Part shown: positions 7,394-15,780 of the stretch, one piece after another
Numbering within the stretch: the stretch's first letter is position 1
Layout of the letters: each line of letters starts with the position of its first letter
Source: Halonotius pteroides
GTDB lineage: Archaea > Halobacteriota > Halobacteria > Halobacteriales > Haloferacaceae
Direction: 5' to 3'
DNA: 54,022 nucleotides
Assembly: GCF_003605635.1 (NCBI RefSeq)
Contig: NZ_QMDW01000016.1
Span: 1 to 54,022 of the forward strand
Program-made: the position numbers and the translations under genes
The notes under the pieces: model-generated
Told to the model about the DNA's origin: nothing
Seen by the model: only the letters and a program-made list of their open reading frames with translations
Databases searched by the model: none

Positions 7394-7632
7394 TCGTGAC
7401 GGTGTCCTTGATTAGCACGTCGCAGCCCGCATCAGCATGGCGGTCGGGTTGGCGGGAAGCTGTCACTTTCGACTATTAATTTCGACGTAAGGCGAGGGGG
7501 TGCATTTAGATTCTAGTTGAAGTCCCTCTTTCAGCAGGGGGCGTAGGCAACCCCCTAAAACGCCGATTTTAAGCAGCTTAGCATGTCCAAAGCCGGGGTT
7601 AGTTGCAATACAGAACTGCCTAACTACTAGAT
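7394..7632. other. Gene-free stretch with G/C-run hairpins, possible transposon scar
   Basis: No gene is supported. TTGAAGTCCC at 7517-7526 is followed by a G run at 7537-7541 and a C run at 7551-7555, so alternative short hairpins can form. The TTGAAG-C run-G run arrangement reminds me of the right ends of haloarchaeal IS200/IS605-type elements, but there is no transposase and this is only a resemblance. Confidence 0.3.
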
Positions 7633-7706
7633 GGGCCCTATCGGATTTGAACCAATGACCACCGAGTTATGAGCTCGGCGCTCTTACCAGACTAAGCTAA
7701 GGGCCC
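7633..7706 (-). tRNA. tRNA-Met (anticodon CAU)
   Basis: A 74-nt cloverleaf reads from 7706 down to 7633. The 7-bp acceptor stem is GGGCCCT/AGGGCCC, the anticodon stem CCGAG/CTCGG holds loop CTCATAA (anticodon CAT), and the T-arm is ATTGG-TTCAAAT-CCGAT. The acceptor starts with G-C, unlike a typical archaeal initiator, so elongator Met or the CAU-reading tRNA-Ile are the options; elongator Met is favoured. CCA is not encoded. Confidence 0.92.
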
Positions 7707-7954: not shown

Positions 7955-7979
7955 TCGTGAGTTGTCGCAGGAAAACGAC

Positions 7980-8051
7980 GCCGTCGCCAGGGCTCGAACC
8001 TGGGACCACCTCGTTAACAGCGAGGTGCTCTACCATCTGAGCTACGACGGC
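7980..8051 (-). tRNA. tRNA-Asn (anticodon GUU)
   Basis: A 72-nt cloverleaf reads from 8051 to 7980. The acceptor stem is GCCGTCG/CGACGGC, D-arm GCTC-AGATGGTA-GAGC, anticodon stem CCTCG/CGAGG with loop CTGTTAA (GTT), and T-arm CCAGG-TTCGAGC-CCTGG. No intron or encoded CCA. The 3' end is duplicated downstream at 7828-7849. The divergent neighbour at 8151 encodes the CCA-adding enzyme. Confidence 0.96.
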
Positions 8052-8150: not shown

Positions 8151-9506
8151 ATGCCGAGCCTTGAGAGCGTCCTCGATACCGTCGCCGACCGCGTCACCCC
8201 CGAACGCGACGAACGAGAGCGGCTGGCCGACGCGGCAGCGACGCTGACCGACCGCGCCGAGGCCGCCCTCGTCGACCGCGACATCGACGGCGACGTGCTT
8301 CAGGTCGGTTCGACGGCTCGCGGTACCTGGCTCGCTGGCGACCGCGATATCGACCTGTTCGTTCGGTTTCCGACCGACTACGACCGCGCCGAGTTAGAAC
8401 GCCTCGGGCTCGCCATCGGCCACGAGGTGCTCCCTGATGGCCACGAGGAGTACGCCGAACACCCTTACGTGACCGGCGAATTCGAGGGTTTTGCGGTTGA
8501 CCTCGTTCCGTGTTATGCCGTTGACAGCGCGACGGCGATCCGTTCGGCGGTCGACCGCACCCCGTTTCATACTCGGTATATCGACACCCACATTGACGAC
8601 ACTCTTGCCCGCGATGTTCGCCTCTGCAAACGCTTTCTCAAAGGGATCGGTGCCTACGGCAGCGACCTCCGCACCGAGGGCTTTTCGGGCTATCTAGCCG
8701 AACTCCTCGTTCTCGAATACGACGGTGTTGACGCCCTACTTCGGGCGGCCGCCGACTGGCAGCCACCGCTCACGCTCGATCCTAAGGCGCACGGCACCGA
8801 ATCCTTCGACGACCCGCTCACCGTTATCGATCCAACCGATCCCGAGCGCAACGTCGCGGCCGTGCTCTCGGCGACGAATCTCGCTCGGCTCCAGCATTAT
8901 GCCCGCGACTTGCTTGCCGACCCTCGCGACGCAATATTCACCCCTTCAGAACTATCGCCGCTTGACCGCGAGAGCGTCCGGACGCATCTCGCCGACCGCG
9001 AGACGACAGCCGCCGCCATTGTCTTCGAAACACCGGCTATCGTCGAGGATCAACTGTATCCACAACTCCGCAAGTCACTGGCTGGGATCGTTGATGGCCT
9101 CGAACGCCACGACTTCGGTGTCGTTCGATCGACAGCCATCGCCGATGCTGATCGGAGCGTCCTGCTTGCCGAACTCGCGGACACGACGCGACCGGCGATC
9201 GAACGCCACGAGGGACCGCCGGTAGCTGTCCGCGATCACGCTGTGGGCTTTTTTGAGAGCTATGTCGACGACGACACGGTGTACGGCCCGTTTCTCGACG
9301 GCGATCGATACGTGGTCGAACGCCCACGCGCGGTGACTGACGCCCGCACATACCTCGACAGCGACGCCATTTTTGAGGTTGCCCTCGGCGCACAGATCGA
9401 GACGGCACTTGCTGACGGCTACGAACTCCTGTGGGATGAGGCGGTGGCGACGCTGGCCGACGAGTTCGGCACCGAGCTGGCGGCATACTTTGAGCCAACG
9501 CCCTAG
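8151..9506 (+). CDS. cca: CCA tRNA nucleotidyltransferase (archaeal class I)
   Basis: This 451-residue enzyme adds or repairs the 3'-terminal CCA of tRNAs using CTP and ATP. It is needed here because the nearby tRNA genes do not encode CCA. The nucleotidyltransferase signature GSTARGTWLAGDRDIDLFV starts at residue 53, with metal-binding Asp66 and Asp68, and the third acidic residue is probably Asp117 (AVDLVPCY). The central segment RLCKRFLKGIGAYGSDLRTE is typical of archaeal CCA enzymes, followed by the tail domain. Length fits the archaeal family (about 440-460). The gene is divergent from tRNA-Asn, 99 bp away. Confidence 0.97.
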   Translation: MPSLESVLDTVADRVTPERDERERLADAAATLTDRAEAALVDRDIDGDVLQVGSTARGTWLAGDRDIDLFVRFPTDYDRAELERLGLAIGHEVLPDGHEEYAEHPYVTGEFEGFAVDLVPCYAVDSATAIRSAVDRTPFHTRYIDTHIDDTLARDVRLCKRFLKGIGAYGSDLRTEGFSGYLAELLVLEYDGVDALLRAAADWQPPLTLDPKAHGTESFDDPLTVIDPTDPERNVAAVLSATNLARLQHYARDLLADPRDAIFTPSELSPLDRESVRTHLADRETTAAAIVFETPAIVEDQLYPQLRKSLAGIVDGLERHDFGVVRSTAIADADRSVLLAELADTTRPAIERHEGPPVAVRDHAVGFFESYVDDDTVYGPFLDGDRYVVERPRAVTDARTYLDSDAIFEVALGAQIETALADGYELLWDEAVATLADEFGTELAAYFEPTP

Positions 9507-9546: not shown

Positions 9547-10554
9547 CTACTCGATGTCGAGCCGTCGGCGAATGTCGTCGGTGATCTCGACGGTCGATGT
9601 CTCCGGGTCGTCCTCGCAGGTGATCGGCTCCCGGCCGTCGAAGGTTTCGTGTACCATCCCAACCCCCTCTGAGAGCGTATCCAACCCGTAGCCACCCTCT
9701 AAGACGAAGGCGAGGGCGGCGTCGTTGGCGTCGGCGATCGACCGCAGCCGATCGGTCAACAGCGCGTACCCCTCGGTCGACACACGGTGGCGGGAGATCG
9801 GATCATGTTCGTGGGCGTCAAACCCAGCGCTCACGATGACGAGATCCGGATCGAAGTCGGCGAGTGCGGGGGCAAGTGCCTCATCGACGACGTGGAGGAA
9901 ATCGGCATCGCCAGCCCCTGCCGGAAGCGGCGCGTTCAGGGTTGCCCGTTCGCCGTCGCCGGTGCCAGTTTCGTCAACATTGCCGGAGCCCGGATAGATC
10001 CCTTCCTCGTGAATTGAGCCATAGAACACGTCCTCGCGGTCATAGAAGATATCCTGTGTCCCGTTGCCGTGGTGGACATCCCAATCGAAGATCGCAACCC
10101 GATCAACCTCGCCCTCATCGAGCAGCGTCTGGGCGGCGACGGCGGCGTTGTTGACAAAACAGAACCCCATTGCCTTGTGGCTGACCGCGTGATGGCCTGG
10201 CGGTCGCCCGAGCGAAAACGGGGTCTGGCGGCCGTCAGCCCCATCAAGGGCCTGCCGGGCGGCCCACAACGCGAGGCCAGCGCTTTTGCGAGCGGCATCC
10301 CAGGTGCCCTCGGAGGCGACGGTGTCGCGATCCCAACTGCCGCCGTCGTTCTCACAGAATCGCTTGAGCTCGTTGAGGTAGGTGCCGCGGTGGACAGCTT
10401 GTATCTGCTCGCGGGTTGCTGCTGGGCCATCTTGGTAGTCGACGTGATGTTTGTGCTGGAGCGCTCGCTGGATCGCCCGCAGTCGATCAGCCGTCTCGGG
10501 GTGTCGTTCGCCGGTATCGTGTTCCAGACACACGTCGCTGTAGCCGAACTGCAT
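9547..10554 (-). CDS. hdaI: Histone deacetylase / acetylpolyamine amidohydrolase family protein
   Basis: This 335-residue zinc hydrolase removes acetyl groups from acyl-lysine or acylpolyamine-type substrates. The catalytic machinery is complete: the His pair in RPPGHHA (residues 117-123), zinc ligands Asp159 and His161 in DWDVHHGNGT, zinc ligand Asp246 in SAGFDAHEHDP, and the Tyr of EGGY at 286-289. Its start codon overlaps the stop of the upstream histone gene (TAATG), so translation is probably coupled. That places a deacetylase directly in a chromatin operon, although archaeal histones lack the long acetylated tails of eukaryotes, and the real substrate could be another protein or a polyamine. 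I use the name known for Haloferax homologues; substrate specificity is unproven. Confidence 0.93.
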   Translation of the reverse strand: MQFGYSDVCLEHDTGERHPETADRLRAIQRALQHKHHVDYQDGPAATREQIQAVHRGTYLNELKRFCENDGGSWDRDTVASEGTWDAARKSAGLALWAARQALDGADGRQTPFSLGRPPGHHAVSHKAMGFCFVNNAAVAAQTLLDEGEVDRVAIFDWDVHHGNGTQDIFYDREDVFYGSIHEEGIYPGSGNVDETGTGDGERATLNAPLPAGAGDADFLHVVDEALAPALADFDPDLVIVSAGFDAHEHDPISRHRVSTEGYALLTDRLRSIADANDAALAFVLEGGYGLDTLSEGVGMVHETFDGREPITCEDDPETSTVEITDDIRRRLDIE

Positions 10555-10985
10555 TATTCGAAGAGCGAAAAGTAGGTCTCGATGTCATCGGCCTGTACGG
10601 TGCGTCGGTCGGCGTGGTGGGCGAGGGTGACGGCGGCGGCGGCGACGTTGTCGGCGTAATCCTCGAGAATATCCGCCAGAGCGATCCGGGCGTCCATCGA
10701 CACCCGGTAGCTGTCGTCGATCTCCAGTCTGGCGATCCGATCGACGGGGGCGATCGGGAGCTCAAGGCTCTCACGACCGACGACCGTTTCCACGCCGAAG
10801 TCGGTCGCCATCAGCGTTTTCCGGCCGTCGGCGGTTGCCGTCTCGGCGGCTCCCACCGCCAGCGTTGCCCCGTGGCGTTGCACGCGGCTGGCCAACGCCT
10901 CGGCGGCGTCGGCACTCACCCGGAGTGAGCCAGTGTTGCGCCGAATAATCGCATCAACCGGGGCGAACGGCAACTCGACACTCAT
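10554..10985 (-). CDS. hstA: Archaeal histone, fused two-fold doublet
   Basis: This 143-residue protein has two histone folds in one chain, as in other haloarchaeal histones. Fold 1 spans about residues 1-70 (ELPFAPVDAIIRRNTGSLRV, then ADAAEALASRVQRH and an ATDFGVE end). Fold 2 spans about 77-143 (ELPIAPVDRIARL, DARIALADILEDYADNV, QADDIETYF). It should bind and wrap DNA or act as a transcription-level regulator, the role proposed in halophiles. Start 10985 is chosen because the folds begin there and a TATA-like element (attata read on the minus strand, around 11009-11014) lies about 26 nt upstream. The stop codon shares a base with the deacetylase start. Confidence 0.96.
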   Translation of the reverse strand: MSVELPFAPVDAIIRRNTGSLRVSADAAEALASRVQRHGATLAVGAAETATADGRKTLMATDFGVETVVGRESLELPIAPVDRIARLEIDDSYRVSMDARIALADILEDYADNVAAAAVTLAHHADRRTVQADDIETYFSLFE

Positions 10986-11099
10986 ACCCACATACCCGGT
11001 TGTGGATCGTATAATGCTTTCCGTTGTCCTCGTTGCCATCAGCGACCGTTCACACCACTGACAGACGATGGCCGGCGAACGGCACCGCAACAACACGGC

Positions 11100-12623
11100 T
11101 CAGAGCACGTCGTCGGCGTCGATCGTCCCGTCGGTTTCGGTGCCGCGGACGGTCACCTCCTCGCCGAGTCGGAGCTCGGCGTCGGCCTCGATCTGTCGGG
11201 TCTCGGTGCCGTTGTCGAGGATGATCGGACTGCCGGCTTGGACGACGGTGCCGGTGAACTCGACGGTTTCGCTGACCTGCGTGGCCGCCGCGGCCCCGCC
11301 GGCCTCGCTGCCGGTCGTCACATCGGTTCCTGCTGTCGCCGCCGCGGCCTCAGCGGTCGCATCCTCGGCAGCCGCTGCGTCCTCGCTCGCCTCGTCGCTG
11401 TCGGCATCCTCGAACGCTGACATCCCTGTTTCCGCACCTGCGTTCGATTCGGCATCTGAGCCTGTTGTCTCGGTCGTGTCGCCGGCGTCAGTCTCGCCGT
11501 CGAGAACGGTCACGGTCGACTGCCAGCCGGCGGAGGCTTCGAGGTCGTCCTGCCACCCTTCTTGGATCTCTGCGTCGGTTACGAGCACGCGGTCGGCCAA
11601 CTCGATGTCCGTGTCGGCCTCTTCGCCCCACAGCGCGACCCGCATGTCGTCGGTCTCATCGCGGAGACGGATGTTACGAACCTGTCCCTCCGAGCCATCG
11701 TCGCGGTCGAAGGTGCGCTTCGAATCGGTCTCGATGACGCCGCCGGCGATGTCGACCGTCTGACCGATCTCAACGCTCTCGATGTCAGTCGTCTCAGGAA
11801 CGTATTCGATCTCCTCATCGATCGTCTCAACCGCGCCGCGGGAGCCGACATGGAGCTCGAGGCTGCCGTCCCGCTCCTTGACATAGCCGTCGACGATCTC
11901 GACGGATTGGCCGTCGGTGAACTCCGAGACGAGGGGTGCCTGCTCGTCCCACAGTGTCACGCGAACCCGGCCTGTGGGGTCACCAACCGACAGATTCGAG
12001 ACCTGTCCCTCGGAGCCGTCGTCGCGGTCGAAGGTGCGAACCGTGCCAACATCGAGAATGTTTCCTTTGAGGGTGACATCCGACAGCCCCATCGAGAGAT
12101 CCTCGACGCGATACAGCTCTTGGGTCTCCACATCGAGTTCGGCGTCCTCGTCGGGTTCAGCTTTGTTGACGCTGACCTCAACGCCGTTGTACCCCTCTTT
12201 CGGCCGGCCGGCGATCCGCAACACGTCGCCGGCCTCGATCTCGCCGTGTGTGTCAGCCTCTGGATCGCCAACTGCCGAAACCGCCAGCTTGTCCCACATC
12301 GAGATCCGGATCCGGCCTGTTTCGTCGGCGACTTCGAGGTTGACAACGCGGCCATCCTCGGCGTCTTCCTCGTCACGTTCGAACGTTCGGAGATCGCCGA
12401 TCGAGACGACCTTGCCGAGGAATTTCACCTCGTCCATGCCGGGTTCGATATCGGCGATGCCGTTGACCTCCTCGTCTTTCAGCTCGTGGGCGATCAGTTT
12501 CGCGGCTGTCTCCTCGTCGGCCAACCCACCCATCTGTTCGACCTTGTCCTCGACGGCTTCCCGGAACTCCTCAAGCGACACGTCGGTGTCGAGGGCCTCG
12601 TATTCGTCCGCTATGACACCCAT
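11100..12623 (-). CDS. rpa2: Single-stranded DNA-binding protein, multi-OB-fold RPA
   Basis: This 507-residue RPA-family protein protects single-stranded DNA in replication and repair. After a helical N-terminus (DVSLEEFREAVEDKVEQMGG) there are three related OB folds at about 68-160, 180-275 and 285-370. Each has a version of the phrase TFDRDDGSEGQVxNL...GRIRIxxWD (first copy: TFERDEEDAEDGRVVNL). A long acidic Ala/Glu linker follows and a smaller OB-like C-terminus (VEFTGTVVQAGSPIILDNG). No zinc finger was seen. Start 12623 opens MGVIADEYEALD; the 45-codon upstream extension is Pro/Arg-rich and unlike the family. It is followed after 114 bp by the histone gene in the same direction. The name follows the Haloferax counterpart that I believe has this position. 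Confidence 0.9.
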   Translation of the reverse strand: MGVIADEYEALDTDVSLEEFREAVEDKVEQMGGLADEETAAKLIAHELKDEEVNGIADIEPGMDEVKFLGKVVSIGDLRTFERDEEDAEDGRVVNLEVADETGRIRISMWDKLAVSAVGDPEADTHGEIEAGDVLRIAGRPKEGYNGVEVSVNKAEPDEDAELDVETQELYRVEDLSMGLSDVTLKGNILDVGTVRTFDRDDGSEGQVSNLSVGDPTGRVRVTLWDEQAPLVSEFTDGQSVEIVDGYVKERDGSLELHVGSRGAVETIDEEIEYVPETTDIESVEIGQTVDIAGGVIETDSKRTFDRDDGSEGQVRNIRLRDETDDMRVALWGEEADTDIELADRVLVTDAEIQEGWQDDLEASAGWQSTVTVLDGETDAGDTTETTGSDAESNAGAETGMSAFEDADSDEASEDAAAAEDATAEAAAATAGTDVTTGSEAGGAAAATQVSETVEFTGTVVQAGSPIILDNGTETRQIEADAELRLGEEVTVRGTETDGTIDADDVL

Positions 12624-12827: not shown

Positions 12828-12900
12828 GTCCTGATAGGGTAGTGGACTATCCTCTTGGCTTGCGGAGCCAGGGACCGGAGTTCAAATCTCCGTCAGGACG
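12828..12900 (+). tRNA. tRNA-Arg (anticodon GCG)
   Basis: A 73-nt cloverleaf with acceptor GTCCTGA/TCAGGAC, T-arm CGGAG-TTCAAAT-CTCCG and anticodon stem TTGGC/GCCAG (one T-G pair) around loop TTGCGGA, giving anticodon GCG. The discriminator base is G. A cttaag element near 12798-12803 is at promoter distance. The 3' end is duplicated 96 bp downstream. Confidence 0.93.
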
Positions 12901-14199: not shown

Positions 14200-15780
14200 A
14201 TGGCACGGGTCTTCGCGGTCGCCAGCGCGAAAGGGGGCGTTGGCAAGACGACGACAACGGCAAATCTTGGAGTGATCCTCGCCGAGACCGGAGCTGATGT
14301 TGTGGTGATCGACAGCGACATCGGCATGGCAAATCTCGGGGCGGCCCTCGGGATCGAGTCACCACCGACAACGCTCCATGATGTGCTTAATGGCACCGCC
14401 AAGGCCTCTGAAGCGACCTACGAAGGCCCTGGTGGCGTCTACGTTGTCCCCGGCGATACCGCTCTCTCTTCGTACGCCTCGGCCGACCCTGAAAAGCTCC
14501 CCTCGGTGCTCCGCACCCATTCACAGGCCGACTACGTTCTGCTCGATGTCGGTGCGGGCGTCAGCCACGAGACGAGCCTCCCGCTGTCGCTCGCTGACGA
14601 CGTCCTGCTGGTGTCGACGCCCGAGCGCGACGCGCTCCGCGACACTGAAAAGACCCGCCAACTCACCGAACAGCTCGGCGGCACCGTCGCCGGCGCGGTC
14701 GTCACCCGCACCGACGCGTCGACGCCGGTCTCGGAGCTGGCGACCGGTACCCTCGCGGCGACGGTGCTGGCATCGATCCCGGAAGACGAGGCCGTCCGCG
14801 ATTCCCTGGCGGTCGGCGAACCGTTGTCGACGTACGCTCCCAACAGCCCCGCGGCGGCCGCCTACCGCGAACTGGTCGCCGAACTCACCGATATCGACCC
14901 CGAGGCCCCGCCCGACTCCGAATCCGCGGCGACAGCTCCCGATTCGACACCGGACGCCGAACCGACTGACACCGACCCAGCACCAGCCACCGACACATCG
15001 ACGGCCACAACCGCTGCTGTCGACGCAGAACCGGCTGCGTCAACAGCCGATCAAACCGACACCGACGCCGACAGCGACGAGATGCCCGAGGCCGAATCGA
15101 AGTGGGCGGAAGCGGCCACCGGCACCGGGATCGATGTCGACGAGCAGTTGGCCGACGAGGCGGCAGCTATGTCGGACGCCGCCGAGCCGCCGACAGCCAC
15201 AGAAGCCGCCGACAGCCCCGAGACTGACCAGCCATCGGTTGACGCGGCTGACACGGATGACGATAGTGATGATACAGAGTCGGCAGCGGCTGACGCTGCT
15301 GTCGACGATGGACTGACGCCGGAGCCGACAACTGAGACGATCACCGAGACCGCGACCGATACATCTTCGCCTATCGCTGACGTGGCTGAGGGGATCACAC
15401 CCGATCCCTCAGCCGACGATACCGACTTAGCTGACACCGAGTCGACGCCTGACCCCGAGGCGGCCAACGACGCCGACCCAGCCGAGGAGGCCATCCCGTT
15501 CCACGACACGGACACCGGCGACGATGCCGCTGCCAACGACACGACAGCCGAGTCAGACGCCCCCAAGCCGCCGACTACACCATCCGATGAGCCGGCTGTC
15601 GATGCGTCGAATGAGCCCGCGGCCGAGGAACCGCTCATCCCTGACGCCGAAGGCGAATCGTCGTCGACCACCGACGAGCCCTCGGCGATGACGACCGAGC
15701 TCGGCGCTGCTACCGATGAAAGATCGGATGACGATGACGATGACGACAAGGGCTTCTTCAGGCGGCTGTTTTTCGGCTAG
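14200..15780 (+). CDS. minD4: MinD/ParA-family ATPase with long acidic tail, MinD4-like
   Basis: This 526-residue protein starts with a deviant Walker A box KGGVGKTT at 11-18, the Asp of the A' motif at 38 (VIDSDIGMANLG), and a Walker B-like LLDVGAG around Asp116, so residues 1-230 are a MinD/ParA ATPase. Residues about 235-510 are an unusually long, very acidic, Thr/Ala/Pro-rich tail that should be disordered. The last ten residues, KGFFRRLFFG, are amphipathic and look like a MinD membrane-targeting sequence. In Haloferax volcanii, MinD4 has a comparable extended tail and positions motility and chemosensory machinery at the poles. I infer orthology from architecture only. It may be co-expressed with the tiny membrane gene 39 bp downstream. 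Confidence 0.85.
   Translation: MARVFAVASAKGGVGKTTTTANLGVILAETGADVVVIDSDIGMANLGAALGIESPPTTLHDVLNGTAKASEATYEGPGGVYVVPGDTALSSYASADPEKLPSVLRTHSQADYVLLDVGAGVSHETSLPLSLADDVLLVSTPERDALRDTEKTRQLTEQLGGTVAGAVVTRTDASTPVSELATGTLAATVLASIPEDEAVRDSLAVGEPLSTYAPNSPAAAAYRELVAELTDIDPEAPPDSESAATAPDSTPDAEPTDTDPAPATDTSTATTAAVDAEPAASTADQTDTDADSDEMPEAESKWAEAATGTGIDVDEQLADEAAAMSDAAEPPTATEAADSPETDQPSVDAADTDDDSDDTESAAADAAVDDGLTPEPTTETITETATDTSSPIADVAEGITPDPSADDTDLADTESTPDPEAANDADPAEEAIPFHDTDTGDDAAANDTTAESDAPKPPTTPSDEPAVDASNEPAAEEPLIPDAEGESSSTTDEPSAMTTELGAATDERSDDDDDDDKGFFRRLFFG

Follow-up and report, generated by a model that had tools for sequence, protein, structure and literature searches.

The closest described system is the hstA (HVO_0520)-hdaI (HVO_0522) gene pair of Haloferax volcanii. 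A 2010 review (PMC2946573), citing Altman-Price and Mevarech 2009, reports that the histone and hdaI genes of this species overlap and are cotranscribed, and that the histone may be a substrate of the enzyme. According to the same review hdaI is essential, a deletion being unobtainable, whereas hstA is readily deleted (PMC10128011). Haloarchaeal histones are scarce and bind less than 1% of the genome (PMC10128011, PMC7613761), and their abundance is as low as that of ordinary transcription factors (PMC7613761).

Here, we explored the corresponding genes in a stretch of 54,022 nucleotides from Halonotius pteroides (contig NZ_QMDW01000016.1), which is called the window below, and in related genomes.

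The Locus in the Window

The features of the locus are as follows.

8151-9506, plus strand: CCA tRNA nucleotidyltransferase gene (cca), TIGR03671 above cutoff, convergent and downstream
9547-10554, minus strand: class II zinc-dependent deacetylase gene (hdaI orthologue), 335 aa, PF00850 with E 1e-87
10552-10556, minus strand: TAATG junction, TAA at 10556-10554 and ATG at 10554-10552, base 10554 common to both
10554-10985, minus strand: acidic histone doublet gene (hstA/hpyA orthologue), 143 aa, PF00808 in two stretches, NF043032
11010-11025, minus strand: BRE + TATA promoter-like element AACGGAAAGCATTATA, recognized from sequence, with TATA at −29 to −25 from the histone ATG
11100-12623, minus strand: RPA gene, NF005551 equivalog, 734 bits against a cutoff of 575

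The minus-strand order is thus RPA, histone doublet and deacetylase, followed by the convergent cca on the plus strand, which is outside the histone-deacetylase unit and yet is a marker of old synteny. The initial annotation had stated that the histone stop and the deacetylase start share one base, and that RPA lies 114 bp upstream in the same direction. The coordinates bear out both statements: the shared base is exactly 10554, and 114 bp separate the end of RPA at 11100 from the histone ATG at 10985. The histone gene is the sole one above the family cut-off in the Halonotius genome (3.0 Mb), and the deacetylase is the sole PF00850 protein found there. It is 96% identical to its counterpart in Halonotius aquaticus.

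The surroundings also contain tRNA-Met and tRNA-Asn genes upstream of cca and an oppositely oriented tRNA-Arg gene upstream of RPA (window 7632-7706, 7979-8051 and 12828-12900). A MinD-like ATPase is encoded at 14200-15780; the MinD model spans its residues 3-237, and its acidic, low-complexity C-terminal tail has about 290 residues.

Conservation of the Gene Order and the Junction

Loss of the gene order was looked for among relatives. We found the histone gene directly upstream and on the same strand in 80/80 of the best deacetylase relatives from named haloarchaeal genomes. The junction spacing was between −4 and +4 nt in 77 of the 79 measured loci (−4 nt, 9 loci; −1 nt, 18; 0 nt, 29; +1 nt, 8; +2 nt, 7; +3 nt, 3; +4 nt, 3; +137 nt, 1; in-frame fusion, 1). 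The initial annotation had proposed a survey of whether the TAATG coupling is conserved among haloarchaea. The close spacing is, but the exact TAATG varies: it is one common form (18/79), and the commonest junction has a spacing of 0 nt. The closeness of the two genes is the conserved feature, and the arrangement exceeds chance.

We also estimated how widely the pair occurs. A histone match and a deacetylase match were both present in all 292 genomes spread over the class. The coupled deacetylase appears to be present in about 287 of these 292, as judged by match scores among the matches listed, with adjacency checked in part. The best deacetylase match was weak in seven genomes. Two of them (G249 and G162) were rejected as losses, since one reflects a contig break and the other an insertion inside a gene that is otherwise coupled; the other five are true absences (G001, G007, G021, G218 and G286), with a different PF00850 protein (about 40% identical) elsewhere in the genome. 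In G007, RPA, histone and cca are kept and the deacetylase alone is missing between them. The histone can thus occur without its usual partner, as it does in these five genomes, and the pairing is not an obligatory one.

In one of the five, G218 (family f5/f11; L088, 1088-1938), the histone gene overlaps an upstream ORF, UspA-like by eye, by 4 nt, and the sequence upstream of the histone in G021 and G286 (L091 and L092; families f5/f11) resembles that in G218. In families f5/f11, from which the coupled deacetylase is absent, the coupling partner of the histone seems to have been swapped. In a metagenome-assembled genome (L051, 3626-5020), histone and deacetylase lie in one open frame, and the histone part has a frame change and has lost the end of its second fold. 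This may be an indel, a misassembly or a real fusion, and we did not rely on it as a natural fusion protein in view of the frame change and the truncated fold 2 in such an assembly.

The Promoter of the Pair

A conserved block precedes the histone ATG at −40 to −25; in the window it is the element at 11025-11010. A BRE/TATA pattern was found at −45 to −20 in 66 of 80 loci, in 0/80 for each of six other upstream intervals scanned, and before the deacetylase in 0/79; because the pattern was defined after the alignment was seen and the loci are related, these counts show conservation and carry no probability. A similar but degenerate version is seen in most of the remaining 14 loci. The position of the TATA element is the one expected in haloarchaea and implies a leaderless transcript. 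The distance between RPA and the histone gene, unlike that between histone and deacetylase, varies widely (39-812 nt, median 118).

Nearer to the start codon, bases −13 and −7 to −1 are strongly conserved, with C at −13 and TGTGGGT or TGTGTGT at −7 to −1 (window 10986-10998; L006-L085), and an in-frame GTG at −6 is frequent. These bases could be an initiator, an alternative start or an operator.

The Deacetylase

The deacetylase matches PF00850 with 294.5 bits against a curated cutoff of 27.9. The initial annotation had called its zinc site complete, and this is correct: the zinc ligands D159, H161 and D246, the dyad H121/H122 and the catalytic Y289 are all present, and they are invariant in 81 homologues. 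Its best PDB relatives are HDAC6 and bacterial class II deacylases of the HDAH type. It shares with these the PF00850 fold, all catalytic residues and a nonpolar gatekeeper, and differs from them in having a single domain. The gatekeeper, I253 in the window, is Ile in 81/81, and F, L or I in the relatives compared in a small tree. We take this position to be Glu in the polyamine deacetylase HDAC10 and nonpolar in lysine deacetylases of the HDAC6 type. With Ile there, an HDAC10-like polyamine deacetylase is disfavoured, and the most likely activity, as suggested by these residues, is that of a protein lysine deacylase.

Probable Translational Coupling of the Two Genes

Experiments on other gene pairs of Hfx. 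volcanii show that translation of overlapping genes proceeds by termination-reinitiation. Coupling was strict in the short-overlap pairs that were tested, pairs of this type are enriched for partners in complexes, and coupling is nearly gone at a spacing of about 20 nt (PMC6728339, PMC10666635). A pair with −1 nt is among those coupled experimentally (PMC10666635). For a pair coupled in this way we expected an overlap or a distance between roughly −8 and +10 nt; the −1 nt of the window and the −4 to +4 nt of 77/79 loci lie within this range. A Shine-Dalgarno-like 4-mer before the deacetylase ATG was absent in 77 of 79 loci and present in two, so reinitiation independent of such a motif would be needed; the role of the Shine-Dalgarno sequence in reinitiation is reported to be variable. 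The hstA deletion of Hfx. volcanii is viable and is complemented by hstA alone. Thus, either enough HdaI can be made without translation of the histone, or the deletion placed hdaI at a new spacing.

The initial annotation held that the two proteins are made from one message in linked amounts, and described the deacetylase as fused to the histone by translation. The single message agrees with the cotranscription reported for Hfx. volcanii (PMC2946573), and the overlap makes translational coupling expected. The two proteins are predicted to be coupled, but they are not fused.

The explanation that we consider the more probable, with moderate confidence, is that the pair is transcribed as a bicistronic unit from a promoter of its own, with a class II lysine deacylase of broad substrate range made by termination-reinitiation and coupling serving mainly for co-expression. 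The promoter before the histone gene would give a bicistronic hstA-hdaI message. Ribosomes that finish the histone would, judging by the junction in the window, most likely restart at the overlapping deacetylase ATG. The resulting enzyme, a putative zinc lysine deacylase similar to HDAC6 and HDAH, would most likely have several substrates among the proteins of the cell. The histone may be one of its substrates, in which case K56 would be the only possible lysine in Halonotius. The main effect of the coupling would then be to keep two low-abundance proteins co-expressed.

Age of the Neighbourhood

The arrangement might also be inherited synteny without a functional link, in which an old block of histone, deacetylase and cca was compacted and the overlap is simply the commonest spacing of co-directed genes. 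We searched 61 non-haloarchaeal genomes of the phylum and found a single-fold histone gene and a PF00850 gene in the same orientation, separated by 0.8-4.5 kb, in eight of them, from four families. Among the seven of the eight regions that were fetched, the loci whose genes were checked have cca nearby, in convergent orientation to the deacetylase. The cca gene has kept its place though it has no obvious link to chromatin. In prokaryotes, −4 and −1 nt far outnumber all other spacings (PMC10666635). This older block may have been compacted into the order now seen in haloarchaea. However, the deacetylase spacing was held at −4 to +4 nt while the RPA gap drifted over 39-812 nt, and the promoter shared by the pair is dedicated and conserved. 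Moreover, a small tree did not group the coupled haloarchaeal deacetylases with those of the older block, so that replacement or independent arrival is possible and direct descent is unproven; with a tree that was indecisive and not supportive, we dropped the idea that the coupled enzyme comes from the older block. On balance we give inherited synteny a minor but real chance, and still prefer the co-expressed unit.

In the four deep families (L103-L109) the genes that lie between histone, deacetylase and cca differ: L104 has ThiI, assigned by Pfam, and others, such as NAPRT-like and thiazole-synthase-like genes, were identified by eye.

The Histone and Its Single Lysine

The histone has two PF00808 folds, one in each half of a single ORF. 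Its composition (D+E 24; K+R 14, of which K 1) is acidic and shifted from Lys to Arg. With two folds and this acidic composition, it is an acidic archaeal histone doublet (cluster 3 of PMC13260811). Its only lysine, K56, belongs to an R-K-T loop in fold 1; the corresponding loop in fold 2 reads R-R-T. Lysine occupies this position in 79/79 coupled histones, the sole lysine column that is invariant among them, and in 41 of the 79 it is the only lysine.

This raises the question of whether the pair is a dedicated switch, in which HdaI deacylates K56 and thereby alters dimer stability or DNA binding, and the coupling fixes the ratio of enzyme to substrate. Such a one-site mark, a reversible acylation in loop 2 of fold 1 erased by the deacetylase of the same message, would tune a histone that is scarce and regulator-like. 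The coupling is near-universal, and the residue equivalent to K56 in fold 2 is always Arg, which looks like selection for lysine in fold 1 because Arg is evidently tolerated in the fold. In our alignment to HMfA and HMfB, K56 corresponds to HMfB K53, which makes an inter-monomer salt bridge (PMC8775648).

However, the histones of the five genomes that lack the coupled deacetylase have K56 as well (5/5), although these genomes retain another PF00850 protein, and R-K-T is a general motif of archaeal histones (HMfA, HPhA). Structure alone would explain the conservation. Therefore, the invariance of K56 is no evidence of acetylation, and we rejected it as proof. If hstA is dispensable and hdaI is essential, as the cited reports state for Hfx. 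volcanii, then the essential substrate of HdaI is probably not the histone. We found no acetylated haloarchaeal histone in the literature searched, and the main text of the Hfx. volcanii acetylome paper (PMC10294847) names neither HstA nor HdaI. For these reasons we consider the dedicated switch unlikely, and the reversible mark at K56 equally doubtful.

The initial annotation had started from the view that archaeal histones usually lack regulatory acetylation, and had seen in the locus a pointer to reversible acylation of chromatin. The premise is dated, since acetylation of HTkB K35 has been reported in Thermococcus (PMC8775648), though the position corresponds to His38 in the window histone (alignment by eye). 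The pointer is not supported: the window histone has a single lysine, haloarchaeal histones are scarce and bind less than 1% of the genome, and the histone gene can be deleted while hdaI is reported as essential. A role in chromatin acetylation is possible, but we consider it more probable that the deacetylase acts more widely. If the histone were the substrate, this would be a minimal histone-acetylation system with one histone, one candidate lysine and one eraser made together with it. A fifteen-year-old suggestion thus becomes a sharp test at K56, and the invariance of the lysine, the strongest-looking clue, is insufficient support alone.

The initial annotation had also drawn RPA towards the pair, and a single operon in which RPA is the substrate is very improbable: RPA was matched before the histone gene in 78/79 measured loci, in the same strand and order where the upstream flank is present, and the RPA protein encoded in the window contains 11 lysines, but the histone gene has its own BRE/TATA element (66/80), the gap varies, and acetylation of RPA was not found in the literature searched. 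Given this promoter and the drifting gap, the link to RPA is one of neighbourhood only, and we rejected its membership of the unit as unproven. RPA is superfluous for explaining the expression of the pair, and read-through from it is possible.

Comparison with Known Systems

The Alba-Sir2-Pat system of Sulfolobus likewise joins an archaeal chromatin protein with a deacetylase. It differs in that Alba is an unrelated DNA-binding protein and Sir2 an NAD-dependent sirtuin, not a zinc deacetylase; moreover, the substrate relation is shown for Alba and is only a candidate one for the histone. HpyA of Halobacterium salinarum is likewise the sole acidic histone doublet of its genome, low in abundance and regulator-like (PMC10128011, PMC7613761); the text of the paper that was searched does not mention coupling to a deacetylase.

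The hstA-hdaI pair of Hfx. volcanii agrees with the window in gene order, overlap, histone doublet and HdaI-type deacetylase. The genes are orthologues and nothing of substance differs, with cotranscription and essentiality reported for Hfx. volcanii. The gene pair is real, conserved and already described in that species. Relative to the literature searched, what appears to be new is the conserved promoter of the pair, the spacing held across the lineage, the argument from the single lysine together with its control genomes, and the older cluster.
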